This document shows, in pieces, positions 24,919-41,000 of a stretch of 64,000 bases of DNA. This DNA comes from Chitinophagaceae bacterium (GTDB lineage: Bacteria; Bacteroidota; Bacteroidia; Chitinophagales; Chitinophagaceae). The stretch spans positions 35,491 through 99,490 of the forward strand of contig JAHBTJ010000025.1 in NCBI GenBank assembly GCA_019638595.1, written 5' to 3'. The position numbers and the translations under genes are program-made. Numbering within the stretch: the stretch's first letter is position 1; each line of letters starts with the position of its first letter. The notes beneath the pieces were generated by a model that saw nothing but the letters and a program-made list of their open reading frames with translations, had not been told where the DNA came from and searched no databases.

Positions 24919-25135
24919 AATTCTATAATTGAAGTGATGCAGGTGAATTTAAAGGCTATGAATACAGGCTTACGGCAAGCGGAAGTAGATGTCTTTTAGT
25001 GGCATTGTTTGGCAGTACATCGGAATGCCAGTAAACATTCTAAAATTGAAAATAAACACCTATTGATTCGGGAAAAATTATTTCGCTATCTTTTGCATTC
25101 AAATTGGAAATGAAAGTGTAGATAAAACTATATAA

Positions 25136-25792
25136 ATGAAAATTAAAGTAGCACCAATATTAAAAGACGTGGGCATTATAGCTTTTCTCATACTATTCCC
25201 GCACTTTGTTCCATTGCCTTTTTATTCGTATGCTGTTGTGTGCCTTGCGCTAATTTGGGTGCTTCTGTGCAAGGAAGGCAAGACATTTTATAACATCGGT
25301 CTTGCTAAAAATGGCATAACACCGAAAGCTGTCTTGATAGCAATTATTTCAGCCTTAACTTGGGCAGTATTTATGCAGTTTATATATATTCCTGTAATAA
25401 AACATCTATTCATTGTTCCTGATTATACAGAATATAATTTTGTTAGAAAGAGTATTGCAACGCTTCTAATGACCGGTGCTGCTGCATGGCTGATAGGTGG
25501 GTTTTATGAAGAAATCGTTTTTAGGGGCTATATCCAATTCGTCTTAGAAAAAAAAGTTTTCAAGAGTTGGGGTATATTTTTGAGTATAACTGTTACAAGC
25601 ATATTATTTGGTCTTTACCATTGGCAGCAAGATATTTTTGGAGTAATAGCGGCAGTTTTAGGAGGGTTATTTTGGGGTATTCTTTATAAGAAATCTGATA
25701 ATAACCTTTGGATACCTATTCTATCACACGCAATTTTTGATACCATTACTTTAGTTCTTATTTATATGGATAAGTTTGGAAGATTGTATTAA
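25136..25792 (+). CDS. CPBP-family intramembrane metalloprotease
   Basis: 218 residues with about six hydrophobic helices. The CPBP (Rce1/Abi) motifs are intact: EEIVFRGYIQ (GFYEEIVFRG near residues 122-131), FGLYHW, and HAIFDT near the C-terminus. The family are membrane proteases or bacteriocin self-immunity proteins. It is oriented against the mob genes and is more AT-rich, suggesting a separate insertion. A defence, immunity or maturation role is possible but not shown. The flanking 24,919-25,135 holds only its presumed promoter. Confidence 0.88.
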   Translation: MKIKVAPILKDVGIIAFLILFPHFVPLPFYSYAVVCLALIWVLLCKEGKTFYNIGLAKNGITPKAVLIAIISALTWAVFMQFIYIPVIKHLFIVPDYTEYNFVRKSIATLLMTGAAAWLIGGFYEEIVFRGYIQFVLEKKVFKSWGIFLSITVTSILFGLYHWQQDIFGVIAAVLGGLFWGILYKKSDNNLWIPILSHAIFDTITLVLIYMDKFGRLY

Positions 25793-25813
25793 AACGTGAA
25801 AAGATGTATCACA

Positions 25814-27130
25814 CTAAAACCTGCTTCTGTTATCAGGTCTACGTTTTCTTTTCTTCTTCATCTTATTGGCAAAAGCCTGTTCCTCGTAATCTTCGCCCTG
25901 TGCTTCCGGCAATAATCCTCCTAATCCGTCTATTAATCCCAAATCATCAGTAGCATAGCCGGGTTGCGCCGCTTTCAGAAAATCGAACAGCTCGTGGGTT
26001 TCTTCTTTTTCATCCGCAACGTTCTTACTTGTGGCTGGTATATATGTGTTGCTTGTCTGTTCTGCATTTTGGCGTTGCCCGGCTGCCTGCTCTTTCCACC
26101 AGTCGTTAAATACATTGGCAGAAAGATTTTTATCCAACTGTGAACCGTTCCAGACGGTACGGCTTTCATGGTCTATAAACGTCATGCCGTAAATACGCCC
26201 CTCATCGGTACGGCGTATAACGGTATTGATACCCTGCTCCAATAATTGCTTCTTAAAATCGGTTTCATTATTAGCAGTGTGCATCGCTGCTTCAATGGTA
26301 TTTTTTAAAACGGCTCTTGCGGGGTCTGTCTTCATTTTTTCCTTAGCCTCTGCAAAGTGGTTTTGCAATTCCTCCAATCCCGCATGTTTGCCAAAGCGGG
26401 AAGCCTTAAACGGATTGCTGGCTTTTTCGCCCTGTTCGTTCAGCGCAAAATATACCATGCCCTGTTTGGGCTTCCCGTGTAGCTCCCCTTTCACTTCTTC
26501 TGCTGTGATATTAAAAAGCGAAAGCAGGGCATTGTACGCACCAAAACTTTGATACTGGTAATACTTAGGCAGGTGTCGCACCACCGATGCAACCTGGCTC
26601 TTAATATCCCCGGCTCTGTAATCCACCGGACGGAATATTTGCTCATTCCCGGTGCGCTGCTTTTCGGTGGCGGGTATCAGGTTATACTTTTGCTCCAATG
26701 CCCTGCAAGCATCCATTGAGCGCAGCTTCTCGAACGCATCAGGTATTTTTACGCCGTAGCGGTCAACGTTGGTAGATACAATATGTATATGGGTGCGCTC
26801 AATATCGGTGTGCTTAAAAACGACATACGGCTGCTCGCCGTAGCCCATCCGCTCCATATAGTCTTTGGCTATCTGCCTAAAGTTTTCATCCGTTACCTTA
26901 TCGCCGGGGTCGGGATTGAGCGATATATGCAGTACAGGCTTTTCCGTTCTTTTATTTGCGATGAGGTAAGGCTCAAAAGAGCGGTATAACTGTGCCACCG
27001 AATAGCTGCCGTCCGGTGTTTCCATTATTCTTTGCGTGGCTAAAACCTGCCCGTTTTCCTTATCTACTTTAAGCTGGTTGTAAGAAAGTGCGCCCACCAT
27101 ATTTGCACCATGACCAATTTTTGCTATCAT
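25814..27130 (-). CDS. mobB: MobB relaxase
   Basis: 438 residues with a relaxase/mobilisation nuclease domain in the first 200. The metal-binding three-His motif is KHTDIERTHIHIVS (His107, His114, His116), and the candidate nicking Tyr lies in the N-terminal region (SYNQ, Tyr17). The C-terminal part is acidic and then basic (KKKRKRRPDN). It would nick oriT and lead the strand into the recipient. It overlaps mobA by 4 bp, so the two are coupled. Confidence 0.9.
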   Translation of the reverse strand: MIAKIGHGANMVGALSYNQLKVDKENGQVLATQRIMETPDGSYSVAQLYRSFEPYLIANKRTEKPVLHISLNPDPGDKVTDENFRQIAKDYMERMGYGEQPYVVFKHTDIERTHIHIVSTNVDRYGVKIPDAFEKLRSMDACRALEQKYNLIPATEKQRTGNEQIFRPVDYRAGDIKSQVASVVRHLPKYYQYQSFGAYNALLSLFNITAEEVKGELHGKPKQGMVYFALNEQGEKASNPFKASRFGKHAGLEELQNHFAEAKEKMKTDPARAVLKNTIEAAMHTANNETDFKKQLLEQGINTVIRRTDEGRIYGMTFIDHESRTVWNGSQLDKNLSANVFNDWWKEQAAGQRQNAEQTSNTYIPATSKNVADEKEETHELFDFLKAAQPGYATDDLGLIDGLGGLLPEAQGEDYEEQAFANKMKKKRKRRPDNRSRF

Positions 27131-29480: not shown

Positions 29481-30110
29481 ATGGAAATAATAATTGTTAT
29501 CTGTTTGCTCATTGTCATTGTTCTTTTACTGAAAGACAAGGTAGTTATTCATAAGCCGGTGCATAGGCAGGAAAAGCAGGAAAGTAAAACGCCTGAACTG
29601 CCGGATATTATAGGGCTGCCTAAGTCTGTGGAACGCCACGCAATGCCAATGAATGCCAGCAAAAGACAAACAGATAAAAGCAAAAGTATACCGGATAATT
29701 TTGAAACAGAAACCGAAGAAAAGGCTTTGGGGTTAGTAATTCCGCAGGAAGAACTGGATGAAGTTTTCGGGAGTATGCCCGATTTGGAAGACGAAGAAGA
29801 ATGGAGCGAATACGGGGATGCGGACAGCGACAATGGGTTTGCTACGGGGGTTACCTTTGATGAACTAAGCACCGTGGGGGCATTGTTACAGCAGGATGTG
29901 CTGGAGCCTGCCTTGCAGCAAAAAGCGGTCAATATAGTTCAGCGCATACAAGGAACCGAATTGTTCAGTCTGCTCGAAAACTCAATGGAGGGGGCTTCAC
30001 GAAAGATTGCAGCGTTGTTGGATAAGAGCCTCCCCGCCGGAACTGATTTCAGTTCTTCCAATTTGCGGAATAAGGATTTGGAGGGTTTCGACATTGGGGA
30101 GTTTGTCTGA
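29481..30110 (+). CDS. traD: TraD-like conjugal transfer protein
   Basis: 209 residues with an N-terminal membrane anchor (IIIVICLLIVIVLLL, residues 3-17) and an acidic centre (MPDLEDEEEWSEYGDADSD). The conserved C-terminal helical segment runs from QDVLEPALQQKAVNIVQRIQG to GFDIGEFV. The position after traA-traB is that of TraD. Its last 138 bp (29,973-30,110) are repeated at 34,221-34,358, on the far side of the ABC-3C operon. In a simple element traE would follow; here 7.7 kb of antisense defence genes intervene. Confidence 0.8.
   Translation: MEIIIVICLLIVIVLLLKDKVVIHKPVHRQEKQESKTPELPDIIGLPKSVERHAMPMNASKRQTDKSKSIPDNFETETEEKALGLVIPQEELDEVFGSMPDLEDEEEWSEYGDADSDNGFATGVTFDELSTVGALLQQDVLEPALQQKAVNIVQRIQGTELFSLLENSMEGASRKIAALLDKSLPAGTDFSSSNLRNKDLEGFDIGEFV
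29973..30110 (+). repeat. Direct repeat copy 1: intact traD 3' end
   Basis: The 138 bp from CTCGAAAACTC to the traD stop are aligned without gaps to 34,221-34,358, with 9 mismatches counted by hand (about 93% identity). The two copies are in the same orientation and bracket the ABC-3C operon. Confidence 0.95.
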
Positions 30111-30129
30111 TAAGACAGCTTCCCTTTGT

Positions 30130-30942
30130 TTATATCGGATTTTCTAAAAACTCTTCAAACGATGAGTAGTTTTTTATTCCTTTAGATTTATTTACTTTCC
30201 CCATTATTGTTCCGTCAATGCGACTTTTCAGATACGCTACAAAATCATCAAAATATCGGACATCAATATAATTAATCCCGGAAGCCTTATATCTTTTGGA
30301 TAACGAAATAGTAAATGCTGCCCAATTAAATTTTTCTCCTTTCTTATTTAATTCAATTTGCTTCCAATCTCCATATCTCTTTTTAAGATAATCAATGTAG
30401 TTTTTCTTGGAAAGCTCTTTGCCTAAAGCGCCTTCTGGCAATTCAAGTTTTGGCTTTACTGGTTTAGTCTTCTTTATAAACTTAGGGAAGTACTTCTGCA
30501 ATAGACCTTCTGACTGCTCAATATGTTTTGTTATAGTGTCCCATCCCCAATAATATAAATGAAATGACAATTGTTGTTCATTTTTAAGCTGACTTAAATA
30601 TTCCTGTATTTGGGTATCATCGCGGAATGTCGAAACAAAAACAAACTTATCAAAATCAATTCTTAAATCCTTTACTTTCTCTAAGTCGGCATTTATATCC
30701 TGAATTAGATTTTTCCTGATAATCTCATCTTTTTTTCCAATGCTTTTCAACTTACATTGCACCACTGTTTTCGTTTTACTGGAAAAGACATCAATCCCTT
30801 TTTGGTTTTGACCTTTGACACCAAATGTCTGAAAGTCTATATTCTCGTATGACGATGTATTTTCTACAAAATTGAACAGGTCGCAGGTAAGCTCCTCAAA
30901 TAATCTTTCGTCCTTTAAAGGAGGTAATTGGTAATTCGCCAT
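30130..30942 (-). CDS. Mrr-like restriction endonuclease of the ABC-3C operon
   Basis: 270 residues. The N-terminal half carries a PD-(D/E)XK nuclease core of Mrr type: FEELTCDLFN helix, GVKGQNQKGIDVFSS with Asp51, then VVQCKLK with Gln62 and Lys64. The C-terminal 100 residues (YLKKRYGDWKQIELN..., LSKRYKASGINYIDVRYFDDFVAYL) are not a domain I recognise. The start codon directly follows the stop of the ATPase gene, so it is the fifth and last gene of the operon. It may be the DNA-cutting effector or an accessory nuclease. It ends 20 bp from the traD stop, tail to tail. Confidence 0.75.
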   Translation of the reverse strand: MANYQLPPLKDERLFEELTCDLFNFVENTSSYENIDFQTFGVKGQNQKGIDVFSSKTKTVVQCKLKSIGKKDEIIRKNLIQDINADLEKVKDLRIDFDKFVFVSTFRDDTQIQEYLSQLKNEQQLSFHLYYWGWDTITKHIEQSEGLLQKYFPKFIKKTKPVKPKLELPEGALGKELSKKNYIDYLKKRYGDWKQIELNKKGEKFNWAAFTISLSKRYKASGINYIDVRYFDDFVAYLKSRIDGTIMGKVNKSKGIKNYSSFEEFLENPI

Positions 30943-32718
30943 TTAAAAAAATCGTTTAAAAATTGTTTCCTGTTCGGTATCTGAATATTCGGCAATTACC
31001 TGTTTCGACCAGTCAAAATCAAACTTACCAAACTTGCTCTCATCCCTGCTTAAATCAATTTCATCTTCATTAAATGTAAGAATATATTGGAAATTATGCA
31101 GTTCGTTCGATTTGTGATACATATAGTTCAGAACATTAGATATTGTTTTGTATGATATGGCGTGAAATACACCATCATGGATTAAAAAATCCGGAATGTT
31201 CCGTTTATCAACCCTACTTTTTAAGAACACCATTAAATCATAAGCTACAATTTTTAAACGTTCTTGCCCTAAAGCATCCGCTTTTGGAATTTCCACACTT
31301 ATTTTAAATGGCAACTGATTTCTTGGTGAAGTAGAGTTCAATGTAATATTGAAATAAGAATTATCAAATTCTTCATCGAGATAGATAGCATTTTCAAGAA
31401 TTTGCTGAAATAACAATCTCAACTCATCAAGATATGATTGTTGCTTATTTAGCTCGCTAACAATATCCCTTTTTAATTCAGCGATAACAATATTAGAGTT
31501 TCCTAATATTTCCTCTATTTCGTCAATTTCCCTCACAATGGAGGTGTTCCGTTCTAAAAGTGTTTTTTTATTCACTAATCTTTCATAAGTGCTTTCAATC
31601 CTATCCAATGCTCCTCTTTCTTTTAACAAGGAAAATAATTGGCTCCTGTTCTTTTCTAATTTTTCAAGCTGTTTTAAACTTTGGTCTATTGATGATTGTA
31701 GTTTCTTTTCTTCCTCCAACAGATATTTATTCCTATTAGCCAGAAGCTGCTTTTTGAAGTCTATAACTTCATCCAAACTTCTTTTTACAAAGTTCCCAAA
31801 AGTCGCTACGGTTTCATTATAGAGCTTGCGAATTTTGTCCAGGTCAATGGATGAAACATCACTATAAGAAGATTTCAGCTTTTCTAATTTCCGGTTTGTG
31901 TTATGATAGATTACAGATTGTTCGTTTATTTCGGAAATAACCTGATTTAATTTTTGCTCTATCTCTTTGTGATTAGCAAGGAAATTATACTCCTTCAAAC
32001 TATCTTCGAGCGCTGAAATATCTTTTTCAATTTTTAACCGCTCCGTTCTAAATTCCTGAATGTCTTTACCGGTGTCTGCTTTGATTTTTTCAGACAAAGA
32101 CTTTACCGTATTATTATACCTTTCGTATTCAGAAGAAACTTCATTGTATTTTAAAAGCGTTTTAGTCGGAAGGTTAAGCAAATAAAAATTGTATAATGCC
32201 TTTTCTCTTGCATTGGCATTGTATGAAACAAAGTTTAATGGGTCAGCTCTTTGCTGACTTTGCAAATCATCTTTAACAAAAAATTCCATTAATGTTCCAT
32301 ATCTCTTTCCTTCAAAGAACACTTCATTATTCTCCGTTGGAAAAAATATTCCTTCCAGAACTTTGGGCATTTCCGGTTTTTCGTACTCATCAAGTGCATT
32401 AGGTCGTTTTCCAAAAAAGATTTTTTTTGTATCAGCAAAACTTCTTTTAATAAAATACTTTTGCCCCTGTACTTCAAATTCCAAAGTAATTGTATGTTCG
32501 TCATCTCTCAAAAAGTCATACTTCTTTTGACTAAATCTTTTTTCAGCTTTGCCACTTAATAAGACAAAATCAACAAGCCTGACTAAAGTGGACTTACCAA
32601 TACCATTAATTCCTCTGGCTTCTTTATCCCCTGAATATTTGCCCAATATAATGTTTATTCCATTGTGGAATGGAACTGCATCTATTAAGTTGGTATCTGA
32701 ATATATCCTAATTAACAT
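30943..32718 (-). CDS. ABC-3C system SMC-like ATPase (DUF2326)
   Basis: About 591 residues from ATG 32,718; an in-frame ATG at 32,727 is also possible. The Walker A GINGIGKST lies near residues 36-44, in the insert-rich style of DUF2326/RecN-like ATPases. A long coiled-coil region (about 180-430, with many Leu/Glu/Lys heptads) follows. The C-terminal DFLIHDGVFHAISY is the Walker B/D-loop-like part. In ABC-three-component systems this ATPase is the DNA-loading sensor that works with a middle component and a CTD effector. Both lie directly upstream and overlap or abut it. Confidence 0.85.
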   Translation of the reverse strand: MLIRIYSDTNLIDAVPFHNGINIILGKYSGDKEARGINGIGKSTLVRLVDFVLLSGKAEKRFSQKKYDFLRDDEHTITLEFEVQGQKYFIKRSFADTKKIFFGKRPNALDEYEKPEMPKVLEGIFFPTENNEVFFEGKRYGTLMEFFVKDDLQSQQRADPLNFVSYNANAREKALYNFYLLNLPTKTLLKYNEVSSEYERYNNTVKSLSEKIKADTGKDIQEFRTERLKIEKDISALEDSLKEYNFLANHKEIEQKLNQVISEINEQSVIYHNTNRKLEKLKSSYSDVSSIDLDKIRKLYNETVATFGNFVKRSLDEVIDFKKQLLANRNKYLLEEEKKLQSSIDQSLKQLEKLEKNRSQLFSLLKERGALDRIESTYERLVNKKTLLERNTSIVREIDEIEEILGNSNIVIAELKRDIVSELNKQQSYLDELRLLFQQILENAIYLDEEFDNSYFNITLNSTSPRNQLPFKISVEIPKADALGQERLKIVAYDLMVFLKSRVDKRNIPDFLIHDGVFHAISYKTISNVLNYMYHKSNELHNFQYILTFNEDEIDLSRDESKFGKFDFDWSKQVIAEYSDTEQETIFKRFF

Positions 32719-33001
32719 CGCTATCAAATAAACTTATTTGGTTTTCGTCTTCATTTACTTGCTTCACCAATCTTATTTTATATCCTTTCTTTTCAATGCT
32801 ACCAAGTGTATGCAAAAAAGTTAAAGCGTACAGAAAAAGATCAGGAGTTCTTTCTTTTTCTTTGTTCAGAAACTTATTCATTACATCATCCACAATAACA
32901 TACTTGTTTTTGAACGGAGAATTGCCCATGATACTGATAATATCCGCACCCAAGACCATTAGGTTGGTTTTTAGATTACTTTCTGGTTGAGGTAATATCA
33001 T
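32708..33001 (-). CDS. ABC-3C middle component (MC6-like)
   Basis: 97 residues, beginning MILPQPESNLKTNLMVLGADII and containing a winged-helix-like centre (VDDVMNKFLNKEKERTPDLFLYALTFLHTLG). This matches the small middle components of ABC-3C systems, best the MC6 group. The ATG overlaps the stop of the CTD gene in an ATGA, and its own end overlaps the ATPase start by 11 bp. The three genes are therefore translationally coupled, supporting a fixed-ratio complex. Confidence 0.75.
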   Translation of the reverse strand: MILPQPESNLKTNLMVLGADIISIMGNSPFKNKYVIVDDVMNKFLNKEKERTPDLFLYALTFLHTLGSIEKKGYKIRLVKQVNEDENQISLFDSDVN

Positions 33002-33894
33002 AGTTCACTATCTGTTTTTTTGCCTATCAGACATTGTTCAAACATATAAAGCAATACGGATTTTACACACTTTACATATTCATCATCTTTGCTATTGCCG
33101 TATGCTTGTATGTATTGGTCTGTTAGATTATATAACCTTTCCTTAAAACTGCCTGAAAGTTTATTATAATCATTTATAACCCTCCTTTTTAGTGTATTAA
33201 TTTCATCATCGGTATAACCCGAAAGAATATTATTAATCGTATTAAATTCCTCCATTACCAACATCATTTCCGAGTTCATTCCATCCCAATCTTCCTGCTC
33301 AAAGTTCAGCTCGATTTTCTTTTGAGGGGGAACTAATGTCCTTTTGTCAAAATGTATAGCTTTATCTTCTTCAGCCGAAGCATTCAGCAAATCATTGATA
33401 ATGTCTTGTATATAGTCTTGAATAAAGAAACTCTCAATTCCCAAATAGGCAGCAAGTTTTCGCTTTTTACTTGATACCAATTCGTCTATAATGGAGAGAA
33501 GCTGGTCTATTCCTTTAATCGAAGTATTACCATCCAACGCTTGAATTATAGTAAGCTGCTCCGGCGATACTTCGTGATTTACATACATTTCCCAATTCGG
33601 AAATTTCTCTTTCCAGTTTTTTTGATATTTTTCAAAATCTCCTTCCTTATTTGTGGCTCCCAAAACTTTTGTTTCAAAATCCGTTTTGCTGTACTTTCTT
33701 GGAGCGTAACATGCCAATATCTTTTGTTCAGGTAAGACAGTTCCGTCATTACCTTTGTCTTTATTTCTCCTGATAGGAATGTAGTCATCAACACCATATT
33801 TCAGAAGAAACAGTTCATCAATAAACTCCTCGAACCCAAATCCCTCTTTGGATTGAATTTGCATTTTAAAAGCATTTTTTAATAATATATCCAT
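32998..33894 (-). CDS. ABC-3C CTD protein with nuclease-like N-terminus
   Basis: 298 residues from ATG 33,894, 7 bp after the regulator gene; an earlier in-frame ATG at 33,918 would overlap that gene. The N-terminal 80 residues resemble a PD-(D/E)XK core (FGFEEFIDELF, KGNDGT with Asp50, CYAPRK with Lys67). The C-terminal 140 residues are helical, matching the ABC-3C C-terminal domain that contacts the ATPase and middle component. It would be the main effector of the system, probably attacking invader nucleic acid. The catalytic acid set is not fully clear. Confidence 0.75.
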   Translation of the reverse strand: MDILLKNAFKMQIQSKEGFGFEEFIDELFLLKYGVDDYIPIRRNKDKGNDGTVLPEQKILACYAPRKYSKTDFETKVLGATNKEGDFEKYQKNWKEKFPNWEMYVNHEVSPEQLTIIQALDGNTSIKGIDQLLSIIDELVSSKKRKLAAYLGIESFFIQDYIQDIINDLLNASAEEDKAIHFDKRTLVPPQKKIELNFEQEDWDGMNSEMMLVMEEFNTINNILSGYTDDEINTLKRRVINDYNKLSGSFKERLYNLTDQYIQAYGNSKDDEYVKCVKSVLLYMFEQCLIGKKTDSEL

Positions 33895-33901
33895 AAACAA
33901 A

Positions 33902-34117
33902 TCAGAGTTCCAAATCAATTTTCACCCTACCGTCAAATCCTTTTTCTACTATTTCTTTAAGGGTCTGGAGTTTAATATTATTACCATAATCAGTTTCTAC
34001 CTTAGAGATATAACTCCTTTTCTTACCCACTTTTTGAGCTAACTGTTCTTGAGTTAAATGCCTTTGCTCTCTTGCTTCTTTTAGCATCTCTCCAATATGT
34101 CTGCCCGATATTTTCAT
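33902..34117 (-). CDS. XRE-family regulator of the ABC-3C operon
   Basis: I start at ATG 34,117 (71 residues) because upstream in-frame residues show no domain and run into the traD remnant. The protein is almost wholly a Cro/CI-type helix-turn-helix: LKEAREQRHLTQEQLAQKVGKKRSYISKVETDYGNNIKLQTLKEIVE. It is the first gene of the leftward operon and probably represses it until infection or entry into a new host. Its promoter must lie in 34,118-34,220, where I see no clear consensus. Confidence 0.85.
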   Translation of the reverse strand: MKISGRHIGEMLKEAREQRHLTQEQLAQKVGKKRSYISKVETDYGNNIKLQTLKEIVEKGFDGRVKIDLEL

Positions 34118-34187
34118 CTTAAATTGATTAAAAATAGACTTTACTATGAATGTACAAATGTAATTTAAAAGTTGCATTGAACAATAG

Positions 34188-34358
34188 CTAATTGTAGAAA
34201 AAGGAACTGGCTTCCGTCCACTCGAAAACTCAATGGAGGGAGCTTCAAGAAAGATTGCAGCGTTGTTGGATAAGAGCCTCCCCACCGGAACGGATTTCAG
34301 TTCTTCCGATTTGCGGAATAGTGATTTGGCGGGTTTCGACATTGGGGAGTTTGTGTGA
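34188..34358 (+). pseudogene. Truncated traD 3' remnant (direct repeat copy 2)
   Basis: The frame encodes the last 45 residues of TraD (LENSMEGASRKIAALLDKS...GFDIGEFV) with four substitutions. A shorter, diverged GTGFRP takes the place of GTELFSL just upstream. An in-frame stop at 34,185 cuts it off. The nine mismatches over 138 bp are mostly conservative, so it looks imported from a related element rather than decaying in place. It separates the ABC-3C operon from the SIR2-PIWI gene. Confidence 0.9.
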
Positions 34359-34400
34359 GCAAACTTTCTTTTTATTTTTTGTTAAAGGGAGTGCAAACCC

Positions 34401-37400
34401 TTATATGAAAAGCCTGTAATCATAAGTTTTTCCCTCAAAACGTGAAAGCAATTTTCCTATCCGGGCAATCTGATTTGAAGAATCAATTGTGGATGGTAAT
34501 TTGGAATACAAATCAAGTGAGTTCCAATTCATCTTCGTTAAGCCTAATATTTCTGTCGCAATAGTATTGATGTTTGATTCTCCATAATGCTTTGTTATCT
34601 TGATTGGAGCAGGAATACTTCTGCCACCCAAATAAAACTTGTAGTTAGGTTGCCTGACAGAAGGAACTATACCATGTGTCCATAGAAGTGCCGTATCTTT
34701 ATTCGTCACTATGCAAGTACCTCTCGAAATAGGAAACTTGTCAACTTGCAAATTGTTTTGATAGACATTCATTGCCACAAAACGGGCATCAACTTCGTAA
34801 TTAATTTCGATTAAATCAATTTTCTTTATTCCGGCTTTATTGAGGCTGGCTTTTATACCATTTACTTCATCCTCTGTGAAGCGTGTCCTTTTATGAATTA
34901 CAACCCTTTCCGGTAATTTATCAAGCGATTGATAAAATAGTTCACGAATTGACACTCCGAATTGAAAAGCATCTTTAAAAGAGAGATACGGGTTATTCTG
35001 CTTATCTAAAAAATAATTATCAATTTTTGATAGTCTATATTTTAACCCCTGGCCATTGGAATCATAAATGTGACTGCACCCGATGACTATTTCTGATTTA
35101 TTTTGAATTTTAGAAACACTATAACCAATACCTGCATACGCTGTATTCTTTTCCTGACTATTTAAAATCCACGGCGTTCTCAATGACTTAACATAGAATG
35201 ATAATGATAACCACCAATAAATTTGACATTTTAATTTGTCGTTCAATGTATCCTCTCTAATAAGTTGTGTTGAAATACCTCTTGAAGCAGAGAATGCTTT
35301 AATATAATCATGCAAATCAAAACTTTCACCTTCATAAATATAGTTCTCGAAAGGCTGCCATTCAGTAGGGATAAAAACAACTACCGTAGTTTGATTCTGC
35401 GTATTTGCTATCTGGTCAATTTTGGAAGTAATATGCCTTGCTAACCTTAGTGCATTTTCATGGTTGTTAGCCTCATTATTGGCTTTAAAATCAATATCAA
35501 TCCATTTGTCGTTATTGTCAAAATTGGGTATATTGATTGGTAAATTGAAAACAGAAGAAAATCCTGGATAATCAATAAGGTAATCTGGATTGATATTTTC
35601 TGTAGAATGTTTGGTTTGAAGTTTTGAAAGGAAGTCATAGAATTTCGCGGAATAATTCTTACCGCAAATTATTGAGAGGCTAATCTCGTTAGAATAAATA
35701 ACTCCGTTGAGATTAACATCAAAAGGTCTGTTGTTGACAAGACCTCTCATCGGATGATAGTCCTTAAACTCAATATCTGTCGCTACATTTCTGAAAATTA
35801 ATTGAGGCTCTAAGAATTGAACACCCTTAAACTGGGTTTGCTTTTTATTATAGTTATTGGGGACAAAAGTTCTAAAATTAGGGTCTAAGACATTTATCTC
35901 ACCAAATGCTGTATTTGATGAAATTTGAAACTCAAATCCTGTTCCTGAATTTTCAGGATATTCAAACTTCAATCTGTTATTTTGGAATAAAACCCCGTTC
36001 CAAAAATTTAGCAACTCGTCATATTTATTGTTGTATAGCTTTTCTAAAACTCCTTTGCTTAGTAATAATTTCTGTTGTTTTGAAATTTCTTCAGTAGAAG
36101 TAAGATGTATTGTTGGTGTAAAGGTCAGGTAGGCAAAACTTCTATTATCATCGAAGTAAAGCGACACATATATAGCCTTATGTATATCAATGTTGCCATA
36201 CTTGCTGTCGATAGCTTTAAGCCATATCTTGTCTTTTAGATTTGATTCAACGTTGCCTTTAGTTGAAAAATATTTTAGAATAGCTTGAAGCATTAAAGAT
36301 TTGAACGCAGAAACTTTTTCTATATCATGTTTTGATATTGGTTCTCTCTTTATTTCTGATTTTAAACATCCTTTGAATGTTCTGTCAATATCGGTTAATG
36401 TTCCAATGGCATAAACCTTTCTTTTAAAAGGTACAGCGCATATATTCGTGTCTTTGGTTGTTTCTTTCAGAAAGCTCCAAGGTTTTGCATCTTTATAATC
36501 TATTTCGAATTGAAAAACTTCTTTGGGGAATGTAATTGGATGCAGATTACTTTTTATATACTTGTCAGTCTTTGAAAAATTCAAACTAAACTCTGTCTTA
36601 AAATATTCTTCATCTTTTGATGTTTCTAATGCTTCTTGGATTTGTTTTTCAACGGCTATATTTCCTTCAAATGCTGATTTTGACAAATGAATTAGAGTTT
36701 TATCAAATCCGTCAGTAGCTATGTAATATGCTTCTCTCCCTGATTGCCTTATTTTTAAAATCAAATCCGAAACTCCTTCATTAATTTTATCTCCGAAACC
36801 GCACCAATACAAGCGACCAGAGCCTTTTTTCAAAAAAGCAGCCATAATTGCATCCATCAATGATTTGTCCCTACCGCTATATCCAATTACGATGAGATTT
36901 TTATCAGCATGATAATTTGAAAGTTGGTCTTTAAATGTATTATTCTGATTGTCTAATTCTTTTTCTGTATTCTTTAAGGTTGTGAACTTATAATCCCCGT
37001 GTAACGCAATCGTCAATAGCTCTTTGCTGCTTTGATTTCTGAAAATCCTATCAGAATTATCTAATGTAATTTCAATGGGAGTTAATTTATTCTGATGTGC
37101 AGAACGAACAATCAACCCATCGAAATTTGTCGTCCATACGGATTTCACAATATTGTGTTCCGCTAAGAGGCAAAGCAATTCATATCCAATATAAGGTTCC
37201 TTATTTTCAATCAAGCTAAAGAAATACTTACGCCTATCGTCTGGTATTGGATAAGCCTTTTCAGCATAAAAGGAATATTCTTCTGCGGCATCAAGGGCTG
37301 GGTATTCCCCCTGATTGTCTAACCAGTTTTGAATACTTTTCCGAACGGATTCATTTTTATAATTTTTATAAAATTCCGCAGAATTGATGTTTTTAGATAA

Positions 37401-37559
37401 GTAAATGTCTTTTTTCCATTCCCAAATACAATCATAAGCAGTTTGTATTCCCGAACTAATGGATGCGCCAGCACCTAACAAAAATGAATGAGGAACATCT
37501 ATATTTCTTTTAAAAGACCGTAAAAATGCGTCATATTCAAGTTGTAAATTTTCTGCCAT
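34401..37559 (-). CDS. SIR2-APAZ-PIWI fusion (short prokaryotic Argonaute NADase, SPARSA-like)
   Basis: 1052 residues from ATG 37,559; the ATG 36 bp upstream adds no domain. A SIR2 domain fills about 20-270: GAGAS at 29-33, TTNFD with the catalytic-type Asn (143-147), LHGD with His188, and GYSGRD at 226-231. The middle (about 300-650) is poorly conserved and fits an APAZ region. The last 400 residues have MID-like DLHDYIKAFSASRGISTQLIRED and YVKSLRTPW, then PIWI-like AYAGIGYSVSK, where the catalytic Asp is Gly, and a long helix-sheet tail. Such short Argonautes use a guide to sense invader nucleic acid and trigger NAD+ depletion. Here all parts are in one chain, as in the clade S1B fusions. 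Confidence 0.85.
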   Translation of the reverse strand: MAENLQLEYDAFLRSFKRNIDVPHSFLLGAGASISSGIQTAYDCIWEWKKDIYLSKNINSAEFYKNYKNESVRKSIQNWLDNQGEYPALDAAEEYSFYAEKAYPIPDDRRKYFFSLIENKEPYIGYELLCLLAEHNIVKSVWTTNFDGLIVRSAHQNKLTPIEITLDNSDRIFRNQSSKELLTIALHGDYKFTTLKNTEKELDNQNNTFKDQLSNYHADKNLIVIGYSGRDKSLMDAIMAAFLKKGSGRLYWCGFGDKINEGVSDLILKIRQSGREAYYIATDGFDKTLIHLSKSAFEGNIAVEKQIQEALETSKDEEYFKTEFSLNFSKTDKYIKSNLHPITFPKEVFQFEIDYKDAKPWSFLKETTKDTNICAVPFKRKVYAIGTLTDIDRTFKGCLKSEIKREPISKHDIEKVSAFKSLMLQAILKYFSTKGNVESNLKDKIWLKAIDSKYGNIDIHKAIYVSLYFDDNRSFAYLTFTPTIHLTSTEEISKQQKLLLSKGVLEKLYNNKYDELLNFWNGVLFQNNRLKFEYPENSGTGFEFQISSNTAFGEINVLDPNFRTFVPNNYNKKQTQFKGVQFLEPQLIFRNVATDIEFKDYHPMRGLVNNRPFDVNLNGVIYSNEISLSIICGKNYSAKFYDFLSKLQTKHSTENINPDYLIDYPGFSSVFNLPINIPNFDNNDKWIDIDFKANNEANNHENALRLARHITSKIDQIANTQNQTTVVVFIPTEWQPFENYIYEGESFDLHDYIKAFSASRGISTQLIREDTLNDKLKCQIYWWLSLSFYVKSLRTPWILNSQEKNTAYAGIGYSVSKIQNKSEIVIGCSHIYDSNGQGLKYRLSKIDNYFLDKQNNPYLSFKDAFQFGVSIRELFYQSLDKLPERVVIHKRTRFTEDEVNGIKASLNKAGIKKIDLIEINYEVDARFVAMNVYQNNLQVDKFPISRGTCIVTNKDTALLWTHGIVPSVRQPNYKFYLGGRSIPAPIKITKHYGESNINTIATEILGLTKMNWNSLDLYSKLPSTIDSSNQIARIGKLLSRFEGKTYDYRLFI

Positions 37560-37595
37560 ATTTAATTTGGTCGCGACTCTTTTCGTAGTCAGCAA

Positions 37596-37846
37596 AACGA
37601 TTTATCTAATATTTTAATAACTCCTTCTTTTTCATCAAATACCATTGCTCTCAACTATTAGAAAATCTAAAGAAAAGGCTTATGGTTATAACTCGCTAAT
37701 ATACCATTTTTGAGCGTATAACTGCCACCAACTGCCAAGTAATTCCACCGAAAGACACATCACTATCACGCCTTGTTTTCCATGACACTTTTGTTGCCAA
37801 GCTCGCAGGAAGCGGGAAATCAGTAACAAAATAATTCAGATTAATT
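37596..37846. other. Gap between the SIR2-PIWI gene and traE
   Basis: 251 bp upstream of both divergent genes. It must hold the promoter of the leftward SIR2-PIWI gene and probably one for traE onwards, since the tra operon is broken by antisense genes. No clear TAnnTTTG box was found by eye and no ORF is supported. Confidence 0.4.
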
Positions 37847-38152
37847 ATGGAAAGACAAAGCAAAAAAGTGTTGCTGACAGGCATTGCATTACTGTCGGCA
37901 TTTGGTGTGTTCGCCCAGGGGAATGGCAATGCTGGCATTCAGGAAGCAACACAAATGGTAACGGGATATTTCGACCCGGCTACCAAATTGATTTATGCCA
38001 TTGGTGCGGTGGTTGGGCTTATCGGAGGCGTAAAGGTGTACAACAAATTCAGCAGCGGCGACCCCGACACATCGAAAACGGCGGCAAGCTGGTTTGGTGC
38101 GTGTATCTTCTTAATCGTTGCGGCAACCATCCTGCGTTCATTCTTCCTTTAA
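37847..38152 (+). CDS. traE: TraE (DUF4134), small membrane protein of the mating channel
   Basis: 101 residues with a signal-like N-terminus ending VFAQG and two further membrane helices (LIYAIGAVVGLIGGVKVYNKFSSGD; WFGACIFLIVAATIL). This is the VirB2/TraE-like layout of Bacteroidota conjugative elements. It begins the continuous traE-traQ operon and is followed 11 bp later by traF. Confidence 0.9.
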   Translation: MERQSKKVLLTGIALLSAFGVFAQGNGNAGIQEATQMVTGYFDPATKLIYAIGAVVGLIGGVKVYNKFSSGDPDTSKTAASWFGACIFLIVAATILRSFFL

Positions 38153-38163
38153 TCCGATGCCCT

Positions 38164-38496
38164 ATGAGTAATTACAACATCAATAAAGGCATTGGAAGAA
38201 CGGTTGAGTTCAAAGGGCTGAAAGCCCAATACCTGTTCATCTTCGCAGGCAGCTTGCTCGGCGTGCTTATCCTCGTAATGGTACTGTACATGGCAGGTGC
38301 AAACTCCTACATCTGCCTGTTCATCGGGGCTGGCGGTGCATCGCTCATCGTCTGGAAAACATTCGCATTGAATGGTAAGTATGGCGAACACGGGTTGATG
38401 AAAATCGGGGCAAAGAAAAGGCATCCGAAGTACATCATCTGCCGCAAGGCTGTACATCGCTATCTGAAGTTCACCTCTAAACCCGATGCCCTATGA
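38164..38496 (+). CDS. traF: TraF (DUF4133), VirB3-like membrane protein
   Basis: 110 residues from ATG 38,164. It begins MSNYNINKGIGRTVEFKGLKAQY and has two membrane spans (YLFIFAGSLLGVLILVMVLYM; SYICLFIGAGGASLIVW), as in TraF/DUF4133. It overlaps traG in an ATGA, so the two are translationally coupled. Confidence 0.9.
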   Translation: MSNYNINKGIGRTVEFKGLKAQYLFIFAGSLLGVLILVMVLYMAGANSYICLFIGAGGASLIVWKTFALNGKYGEHGLMKIGAKKRHPKYIICRKAVHRYLKFTSKPDAL

Positions 38497-41000
38497 GAAA
38501 CACGGGAAAAGCCACAACGCTGGAAAGCAGGTTTCCATTACTGGCGGTGGAACACAACTGCATCATTTCAAAAGATGCGGACATTACCGCCTGCTTTCGG
38601 GTACACTTGCCGGAACTGTTTACCGTAGCATCACCGGAGTATGATGCCATACATTCCGCATGGCATAAAGCGATTAAAACCCTGCCGGATTATTCCATCA
38701 TCCACAAACAGGATTGGTACATTAAGGAAAGCTATGCGCCCGATATTGCGCAGGACGGATTAAGTTTTTTGGCGAAGTCCTACCAGCAGCATTTTAACGA
38801 ACGTCCTTTTTTAAACCACTACTGTTACCTGTTCCTTACCAAAACCACAAAGGAACGGATGCGGATGCAAAGCAACTTTAGTTCGCTCTGCAAAGGCGTT
38901 CTTATCCCGAAAGAAATAAGGGATAAAGAAGCCGTTCGCCGCTTCATGGAAGCGGTAGCGCAGTTTGAGCGCATCATCAATGATAGCGGCTTCATCAAAC
39001 TGGAACGGCTGACCGAAGATGACATTATCGGTGCAGGCGATAAACAGGGATTGCTGGAACAATACCTAACGCTATCACGGGAGCCGGGAACCGCTATGCA
39101 GGACATCGCTTTAGGAAGCGAAGATGTGCGTATCGGCAACAAAAGGTTGTGCCTGCACACTTTGTCCGATACGGACGATTTGCCCGGAACGGTATCGGCT
39201 AATACCCGTTACGAAAAGTTATCCACTGATAGAAGCGATTGCCTTTTGTCTTTTGCTGCCCCGGTAGGTTTGCTGCTAAGCTGCAACCACATTTACAACC
39301 AGTATTTGTTTTTGGATAACAGTGATGAGAACCTGCGCAAGTTTGAAAAGTCCGCAAGGAATATGCACTCGCTGGCAAGGTACAGCCGGGCAAATCAAAT
39401 CAATAAAGAGTGGATAGAAAAGTACCTGAATGAAGCGCATAGCTTCGGGCTTTCTTCTATTCGTGCGCACTTCAACGTAATGGCGTGGTCGGATGAGCCG
39501 AACGAGCTAAAGCTGCTAAAGAACGATACGGGCAGTGCATTGGCTTTAATGGAATGTAAGCCACGCCACAATACTATTGACGTTGCTACGCTGTATTGGG
39601 CGGCGATGCCCGGCAATGCTGGTGACTTTCCGAGTGAGGAAAGTTTTTACACGTTCATTGAGCCTGCGTTGTGTTTCTTCACCGAAGAAACCAACTACCA
39701 GAGTTCGCCCTCACCGTTCGGCATCAAGATGGCAGACCGATTGACCGGGAAACCTATCCACCTGGATATATCGGATTTGCCGATGAAGCGGGGCATCATC
39801 ACGAACCGGAACAAGTTCATACTTGGTCCGTCAGGTTCGGGAAAATCTTTTTTCACAAACCACATGGTGCGGCAATACTACGAACAGGGCGCACACGTCC
39901 TGCTTGTGGACACGGGTAATTCTTATCAGGGTTTATGCGAACTGATTAAAGGAAAGACCAAAGGCGAAGACGGTGTTTACTTTACTTACACCGAAGACAA
40001 CCCGATTGCGTTCAATCCCTTTTATACCGATGACGGCGTGTTTGATATTGAAAAAAGGGAAAGCATTAAAACGCTCATCCTTACGCTGTGGAAACGGGAT
40101 AATGAACCGCCGACCCGGTCGGAAGAAGTGGCATTGTCCAATGCTGTAAGCGGATATGTGGAACGCATCAAACAGGGTGATAAATACCCATCTTTTAACG
40201 GCTTCTACAATTATGTAAAAGGCGACTACAAAAAGGTATTGGAAGAAAAGCAGGTGCGTGAGAAAGACTTTGACCTCGCCAATTTTCTGAATGTGCTGGA
40301 ACCCTATTACAAAGGCGGGGAGTATGATTACTTGCTGAACTCCGATAAGCAACTCGACCTGCTTTCCAAACGCTTCATAGTCTTTGAAATTGATGCGATA
40401 AAAGACCACAAAATTTTGTTTGGAATTGTAACGATTATTCTAAGCGAGATTTTCATCAACAAGATGCGCAGGCTGAAAGGTGTGCGTAAGCTGATATTGA
40501 TTGAAGAAGCGTGGAAAGCGATAGCGAAAGAGGGCATGGCAGAATACATCAAGTATTTGTTTAAAACTGTCCGCAAATTTTTTGGTGAGGCAATAGTCGT
40601 AACGCAAGAGGTGGACGACATCATTCAATCCCCGATTGTCAAGGAAAGTATCATCAATAACTCCGACTGTAAGATACTGCTCGACCAGCGCAAGTACATG
40701 AATAAGTTCGATGACATTCAGGCAATGCTCGGACTGACGGACAAGGAAAAGGCGCAGGTACTTTCTATCAACATGAACAATGACCCGTCAAGACTTTACA
40801 AAGAAGTATGGATAGGCTTGGGTGGTACGCACTCTGCCGTATATGCCACGGAGGTATCGCTCGAAGAATACTTAGCCTACACTACCGAAGAAACCGAAAA
40901 GCTGGAAGTAATGCAACTGGCATCCGAACTGGACGGCAATGTAGAACAGGCTATCAAACGCATCGCCCTCCAAAGGCGTGAAAAGGCAAGCAATTACTAA
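38493..41000 (+). CDS. traG: TraG, VirB4-like conjugation ATPase
   Basis: 835 residues. The N-terminal half resembles the VirB4 domain. Walker A GPSGSGKS is near residues 445-452, with Walker B-like KLILIEEAWKAIAKEG and a VVTQEVDDII motif further on. It should power assembly of the channel and substrate movement at the inner membrane. It is the largest gene of the operon and lies in the standard traF-traG order. Confidence 0.93.
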   Translation: MRNTGKATTLESRFPLLAVEHNCIISKDADITACFRVHLPELFTVASPEYDAIHSAWHKAIKTLPDYSIIHKQDWYIKESYAPDIAQDGLSFLAKSYQQHFNERPFLNHYCYLFLTKTTKERMRMQSNFSSLCKGVLIPKEIRDKEAVRRFMEAVAQFERIINDSGFIKLERLTEDDIIGAGDKQGLLEQYLTLSREPGTAMQDIALGSEDVRIGNKRLCLHTLSDTDDLPGTVSANTRYEKLSTDRSDCLLSFAAPVGLLLSCNHIYNQYLFLDNSDENLRKFEKSARNMHSLARYSRANQINKEWIEKYLNEAHSFGLSSIRAHFNVMAWSDEPNELKLLKNDTGSALALMECKPRHNTIDVATLYWAAMPGNAGDFPSEESFYTFIEPALCFFTEETNYQSSPSPFGIKMADRLTGKPIHLDISDLPMKRGIITNRNKFILGPSGSGKSFFTNHMVRQYYEQGAHVLLVDTGNSYQGLCELIKGKTKGEDGVYFTYTEDNPIAFNPFYTDDGVFDIEKRESIKTLILTLWKRDNEPPTRSEEVALSNAVSGYVERIKQGDKYPSFNGFYNYVKGDYKKVLEEKQVREKDFDLANFLNVLEPYYKGGEYDYLLNSDKQLDLLSKRFIVFEIDAIKDHKILFGIVTIILSEIFINKMRRLKGVRKLILIEEAWKAIAKEGMAEYIKYLFKTVRKFFGEAIVVTQEVDDIIQSPIVKESIINNSDCKILLDQRKYMNKFDDIQAMLGLTDKEKAQVLSINMNNDPSRLYKEVWIGLGGTHSAVYATEVSLEEYLAYTTEETEKLEVMQLASELDGNVEQAIKRIALQRREKASNY

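Follow-up and report, generated by a model that had tools for sequence, protein, structure and literature searches.

Why the 3′ end of the conjugation gene traD should be found twice in one integrative and conjugative element (ICE), on both sides of a putative defense operon, is the question raised by the element carried on contig JAHBTJ010000025.1 of a Chitinophagaceae bacterium (assembly GCA_019638595.1), of which we analyzed a 64,000-nucleotide stretch (hereafter the window). The interval between traD and traE (the pocket) holds two blocks of cargo, all of whose genes lie on the minus strand: those of an operon (cassette A), then, beyond the second traD piece, a single Argonaute gene (cassette B). 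Cassette A had been labeled ABC-3C in the original prediction made from this DNA, and is called ABC-3C-like here. We consider it very likely that the window ICE combines parts of two related elements that shared the traD–traE pocket, put together by one non-allelic join.

The Repeated traD End

Positions 29973–30110 and 34221–34358 align without gaps over 138 bp with nine mismatches, in an identical frame and with a TGA at the end of both, exactly as originally described. The longest exact run common to the two copies is 35 bp; similarity drops at either end, and by repeat finding the pair reaches 147 nt, with 92% identity. The left copy closes an intact open reading frame (ORF) of 209 codons and the right one holds codons 165–209 only, so that the description of a complete gene on the left and a truncated one on the right is correct; 5′ of the right copy, the sequence diverges from traD and the frame runs into a stop. 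Searched in its own 7.06-Mb genome, the right copy gave an E-value of 1.2e-54, no third copy, and a next-best place at only E 1.58, which excludes a chance origin of the repeat. That 34221–34358 might be a separate conserved gene was ruled out, as nothing but traD-tail pieces of differing length occurs in the loci surveyed below.

The repeats had been said to surround the operon and to allow clean deletion of the whole defense block. They do flank the ABC-3C-like half (30111–34220) and bracket 4,248 bp, but the Argonaute gene (34401–37595) lies outside them and would stay. The deletion product and the traD lineage of the window are never combined in the surveyed loci, and the deletion is thus a prediction only.

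Each Cassette Occurs Alone in the Same Pocket

Similarity searches (E-value up to 0.001, weak and partial matches counted, a few genomes recurring between searches) detected TraD in 26 of the 394 genomes examined from the same family, in 134 of 320 and 62 of 399 genomes of two other families, in 2 of 397 of a fourth, and in 10 of 395 drawn from the class. We fetched 140 regions, 136 of them around high-scoring traD genes of three families and four for fragments, which with 19 other loci and the window made 160 sequences; 155 contain a full traD, and 146 of these also a traE downstream. They yielded 138 distinct traD–traE intervals of 209–12,821 bp (median 3.84 kb), a nonrandom sample that falls into 92 clusters at 90% identity over 80% of length.

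Taking as sole cargo what stands alone among ORFs of at least 140 amino acids, we found cassette A by itself in six loci forming two near-identity clusters (L088, L099, L158, L161, L188, and L190), and behind a Gabija cassette in four more (L098, L102, L151, and L157, the L102 group). The Argonaute is the sole cargo of L024 and L091 and, 51% identical and on the opposite strand, of L171; a far weaker PIWI-like match (22%) is present in L093. The pocket of the window is the only one of the 138 to contain the two cassettes together. L024 aligns with the window unbroken over 34300–40984 (75% identity), that is, from inside the right copy through the Argonaute gene and the leader preceding traE to traE and traG, while cassette A of the window can be aligned with its single-cassette relatives up to about 34198. 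After a shared GCATTG, the single-cassette loci reach the traE leader at 76–77 bp, and the window reaches traD codon 165 at 48 bp. From these two alignments, the window consists of the left part of a cassette A element and the right part of a cassette B element, joined about 28 bp short of the leader of the former. A CCACTC at the join, matching the start of the traE leader, was dropped as a clue because of this distance to the position at which the leader starts in the single-cassette loci.

Origin of the Right Copy

At all nine differing sites, the base of the right copy is present among 118 distinct intact traD tails (in 3 to 106 of them), and it is the left base that is rare at 30044 (3/118) and 30074 (5/118). 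The sequence following the stop of the right copy is unlike that behind the left copy and resembles that of other elements. Given the agreement at nine of nine sites, the right copy is most likely an import from a different ICE lineage, in which it would most likely have evolved as a working traD end. The original prediction had read the divergence in this sense and had suggested recombination with a related ICE already bearing cargo; both proposals are supported, the latter also by the single-cassette loci in the same pocket.

Scars of Core DNA Recur in Other Pockets

We ran profiles of the traD tail and of the traE leader over the 614 kb of interior of 137 pockets (one pocket, under 300 bp, was left out) and retained hits at E-values below 1e-4. 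There were seven tail matches (the window, L129, L167, L097, L178, L012, and L164) and eight leader matches (L012, L059, L191, L023, L176, L022, L103, and L147), all 15 in the orientation of traD. These scars lie in 14 of the 137 pockets, or 11 of the 92 clusters; L176 and L191 have the same cargo order, and counting them once leaves about 10 events. None was found at E-values up to 0.01 in 760 kb downstream of traE or in five dinucleotide shuffles.

The tail pieces start at various points, with traceable traD break points at profile positions 4, 52, 76, 81, 95, and 117, and six of the seven extend to the stop. Leader pieces all start from the fixed edge of the cargo (profile positions 3 or 4), and their ends vary (54 to 128). 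A leader piece continues into a tail piece in L012. L059 has a weak tail match right behind its leader piece (9.7 bits; E 3.1e-5 when 200 bp were searched), in a place where 6 of 62 random segments also gave some match at E up to 1. Behind the remaining leader scars that were tested, there is no tail. Three weak plus-strand leader matches (E 0.006–0.008) were excluded from the counts, those of L073 and the second in L023 because they lie on the edge of the element's own leader, and that of L128 because it is weak.

Two further stacks have halves that both occur alone, which supports stacking. The first cargo of L012 is found by itself in L060, L082, L084, and L092, and the second in L136 and L179. 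In the L102 group, Gabija and cassette A, each the sole cargo elsewhere, are stacked without a scar, and the join falls just past the expected position of the traD stop.

A Probable Hybrid of Two ICEs

In the reading that we favor, ICE A would have had the order traD, ABC-3C-like cassette, leader, traE, and ICE B the order traD, SIR2-Argonaute, leader, traE. A single non-allelic join would have connected the outer flank of the A cassette, near 34.2 kb and before the leader of A, to codon 165 of the traD of B, which would have kept the intact traD of A on the left and left the last 138 bp of the traD of B as a scar between the cassettes. The join may have arisen by deletion between tandem ICEs or, equally possibly, by recombination of incoming DNA that was homologous on one side and illegitimate on the other. 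More generally, a point after a first cargo and before traE would be joined to a point between late traD and a second cargo, and the positions of the breaks would decide whether a traD tail, a leader piece, the two together, or no scar at all is left; the absence of long duplications may be due to their loss by recombination. We infer the joining mechanism and the order of events, as well as a selection favoring elements with both systems. The left edge of a tract of high identity to L007, which extends to 30981, may be a homologous crossover: identity steps at 28.79 kb from 82–90% to 92–100% per 50 bp.

Several observations weigh against this scenario. Before 28,840, identity to L007 is patchy across the left side (77–95.6% per 250 bp), so that the crossover at 28.79 kb is only suggested, and the join near 34.2 kb is placed to 34198–34224, not to the base. 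At 30082, the base of the right copy is itself rare (3/118). The parents were not found: the original prediction had proposed a search for traD genes closer to the right repeat, and the nearest intact tails, those of L007 (9 mismatches), L012 (12), and L082 and L091 (13), do not include an exact parent. No leader piece precedes the tail piece in the window, nor in L129, L097, L178, and L164. Finally, for eight scar loci, including L059, L023, L097, L178, L164, and L191, at least one of the two halves was not found by itself.

An intact gene end, cargo, a displaced end, and direct repeats are also the geometry of insertion into the 3′ end of a gene, and the original prediction had offered an insertion rebuilding traD as one explanation. 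Cassette A would then be a site-specific mobile unit with its attachment site in the traD 3′ end, which rebuilt traD and displaced the old end to the right; the leader pieces running into a traD tail in L012 and L059 are what a circle junction would give. We nevertheless regard such a unit as quite improbable, given that the six loci with cassette A alone have no second traD end, that traD break points are scattered from locus to locus, with tail pieces in 7 of 137 pockets starting at different places rather than at a constant attachment site, and that no recombinase or transposase was recognized among the five proteins of 30111–34220, two of which match nothing. Somewhat less improbable, but still unlikely, is that cassettes travel as units flanked by their own traD tail on one side and traE leader on the other, and that a dedicated process, perhaps by way of circles, stacks them at the leader and at the terminator hairpin of traD; L012 and L059 would then show the junctions of such circles.

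The two copies are nearer to each other (nine mismatches) than to most other tails, as would be expected if the element had duplicated its own traD end in tandem and one copy had then decayed. This origin is hard to reconcile with the presence of the right-copy bases in intact traD genes at nine of nine sites, with a post-stop sequence like that of other elements and unlike that of the left copy, and with L024, in which a traD end stands directly beside the same Argonaute; we hold it to be very unlikely. In a draft of 52 contigs with three more traE-like places, it might be feared that two ICEs of the same genome, or one of a contaminant, had been misassembled into one; however, the full traD, the right copy, and a close traE are each present only once, and scars of the same type occur in genomes listed with one contig (e.g., L147 in G836), which makes such an artifact the most improbable of these explanations. 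The three further traE-like places, on contigs C5 and C23 and two of them with internal stops, point to other ICEs or remnants in the same genome.

The traD–traE Pocket as a Cargo Hotspot

A single site thus located receives varied DNA in many elements, and its edges are precise, as expected of an ICE cargo hotspot. On the right, conservation rises from 0.55 to 0.99 at a single column (137 loci) and stays high for about 124 bp up to traE. On the left, the edge is the traD stop with a terminator-like hairpin spanning it (mean −13.3 kcal/mol over 113 distinct sequences, mean z −4.3 versus mononucleotide shuffles, 85% below z −1.5). The pocket would therefore lie between a terminator and a leader, where cargo may disturb little. 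In the window, the hairpin across the traD stop covers 30091–30125; two stem versions with different sequences alternate between elements, and because the hairpin spans the stop, its stem constrains the last codons. The traE leader contains a small conserved hairpin of the GCCCGC...GCGGG type, with little covariation, near which the leader scars of L012, L059, and L023 end.

The pockets contain 467 ORFs of at least 100 amino acids in 145 clusters, of which 107 have a representative of at least 200; family scans covered 98 of these 107. GajA, LmuB, PtuA, and Old are among the 25 models listed of the 810 matched in PADLOC, although related ATPases cross-match; the 25 listed of 104 matched Pfam models include HamA, SMODS, heavy-metal domains, and restriction domains of types I and III. 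In individual loci, we identified GajA with GajB (L102 and L012), HamB (L023, another cargo protein of which gave no family match), LmuB (L097), and a TIR-like ThsB region (L178).

A second variable spot of the window, between the coupling-protein and relaxase genes (25018–25843), holds an Rce1-like protease gene; the gap is only about 55–80 bp in L008 and L013. Cargo also seems to outlive the ICE. The chromosomal regions L025 10001–16810 (also L076) and L078 8252–11616 keep only the traD tail, cargo, and the start of traE, to which L078 adds part of traG and a gene related to that of the 528-amino acid serine recombinase (PF00239) in the window; among the 58 ORFs of the window, no other transfer-region gene matched in these remnants.

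Relation to Known Hotspots and Hybrid ICEs

Precise-edged ICE hotspots are already known, whereas the Bacteroidota site and its scars appear to be new. In SXT/R391 ICEs, variable DNA occupies five hotspots (HS1–HS5) with edges precise to the base; in HS2, cargo begins immediately behind the stop of traA, and 79 bp separate its end from the next gene (Wozniak et al. 2009, PMC2791158). The pocket described here is likewise intergenic, between conserved transfer genes, with varied contents and precise edges, but it belongs to another ICE family and another gene pair. It also contains pieces of the flanking core inside the cargo, where the portion of PMC2791158 drawn on here describes only possible traces of earlier insertions at some edges. 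Element-encoded recombination genes of the bet/exo type are a proposed cause of the hotspots in SXT, and, in the same portion, the authors of PMC2791158 remain undecided between a recombination process and selection for tolerated cargo sites as the source of the precise edges. The scars bear on this question left open in 2009: their break points vary on the core side and their edge on the cargo side is intact, which in this ICE family favors irregular joins filtered by selection. They would also show the places at which separate units of cargo, of which many are likely defense systems, were stacked in one mobile element.

Tandem SXT-R391 arrays form hybrid ICEs, mostly via recA and the element genes s065/s066 (Garriss et al. 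2009, PMC2786100). Here too, two related ICEs in one cell would give one element with genes of both, but the join is non-allelic. For the Riemerella ICE, traABD and traEFG... are named as separate clusters, and no hotspot is discussed in the sections consulted (PMC6491836). Our literature search, with most subscription papers outside its reach, returned no paper on a traD–traE hotspot in Bacteroidota ICEs.

Homology-facilitated illegitimate recombination is known from transformation with linear DNA. The join in the window would resemble it in having one homologous arm, with its possible edge at 28.79 kb, and one end without evident homology.

Genes of the Window Cargo

The features of the pocket and its borders are listed in table 1. 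Both cassettes are likely defense (anti-phage) systems. In cassette A, the DUF2326 match is well over its cut-off and the MC8 match is under it, hence the qualified name. A longer version of the HTH (helix-turn-helix) ORF, reaching 34342, runs into the antisense of the traD piece. The Argonaute is a SIR2-fused prokaryotic Argonaute, with the pAgo match and a SIR2_2 domain (residues 152–265) in one protein.

Table 1. Features of the traD–traE pocket of the window and of its borders
Feature	Position	Strand	Evidence
Tract with 92–100% identity per 50 bp to L007	28790..30981		left edge may be a homologous crossover
Intact traD, left side, 209 codons	29481..30110	+	intact ORF; L007 TraD 96% identical; lineage of cassette A
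Left copy of the 138-bp repeat, traD codons 165–209 and stop	29973..30110	+	alignment, repeat finding
270-amino acid protein, cassette A	30130..30942	-	conserved; next to the ABC gene in 10 further loci that have the whole cassette
ABC-type ATPase, DUF2326	30943..32727	-	PF10088, E 4.1e-28; PADLOC PDC-M68B, E 1.4e-63
Weak match to ABC-3C middle component MC8	32708..33001	-	PF20295, 18.8 bits, cut-off 25
306-amino acid protein, cassette A	32998..33918	-	88–91% identical in 10 other loci; no significant family
HTH regulator	33902..34117	-	HTH_3 at residues 87–133; likely true start 34117
Join, outer flank of cassette A and traD piece	34198..34224		alignment with single-cassette loci fades near 34198
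Right copy, traD codons 165–209 and stop; scar separating the cassettes	34221..34358	+	alignment, tail profile
Cassette B: SIR2-PNTD-PIWI Argonaute, 1064 amino acids	34401..37595	-	PADLOC pAgo, residues 16–1064; SIR2_2 (PF13289)
Conserved traE leader, right pocket edge	37724..37846	+	conservation over loci
traE (DUF4134)	37847..38152	+	PF13572, E 1.4e-39

The 270-amino acid protein gave no family or structure match beyond a single chain at E 0.034; a nuclease-like motif was seen by eye only, and as family and structure searches give it no support, this assignment stays a guess. Its gene is also found beside other systems, where roughly the final 13 codons of the ABC gene accompany it (L007 11466–11504, L061 857–1711, and L025; the counterpart in the window is 30943–30981), as though a cut within that ABC gene had split cassette A.

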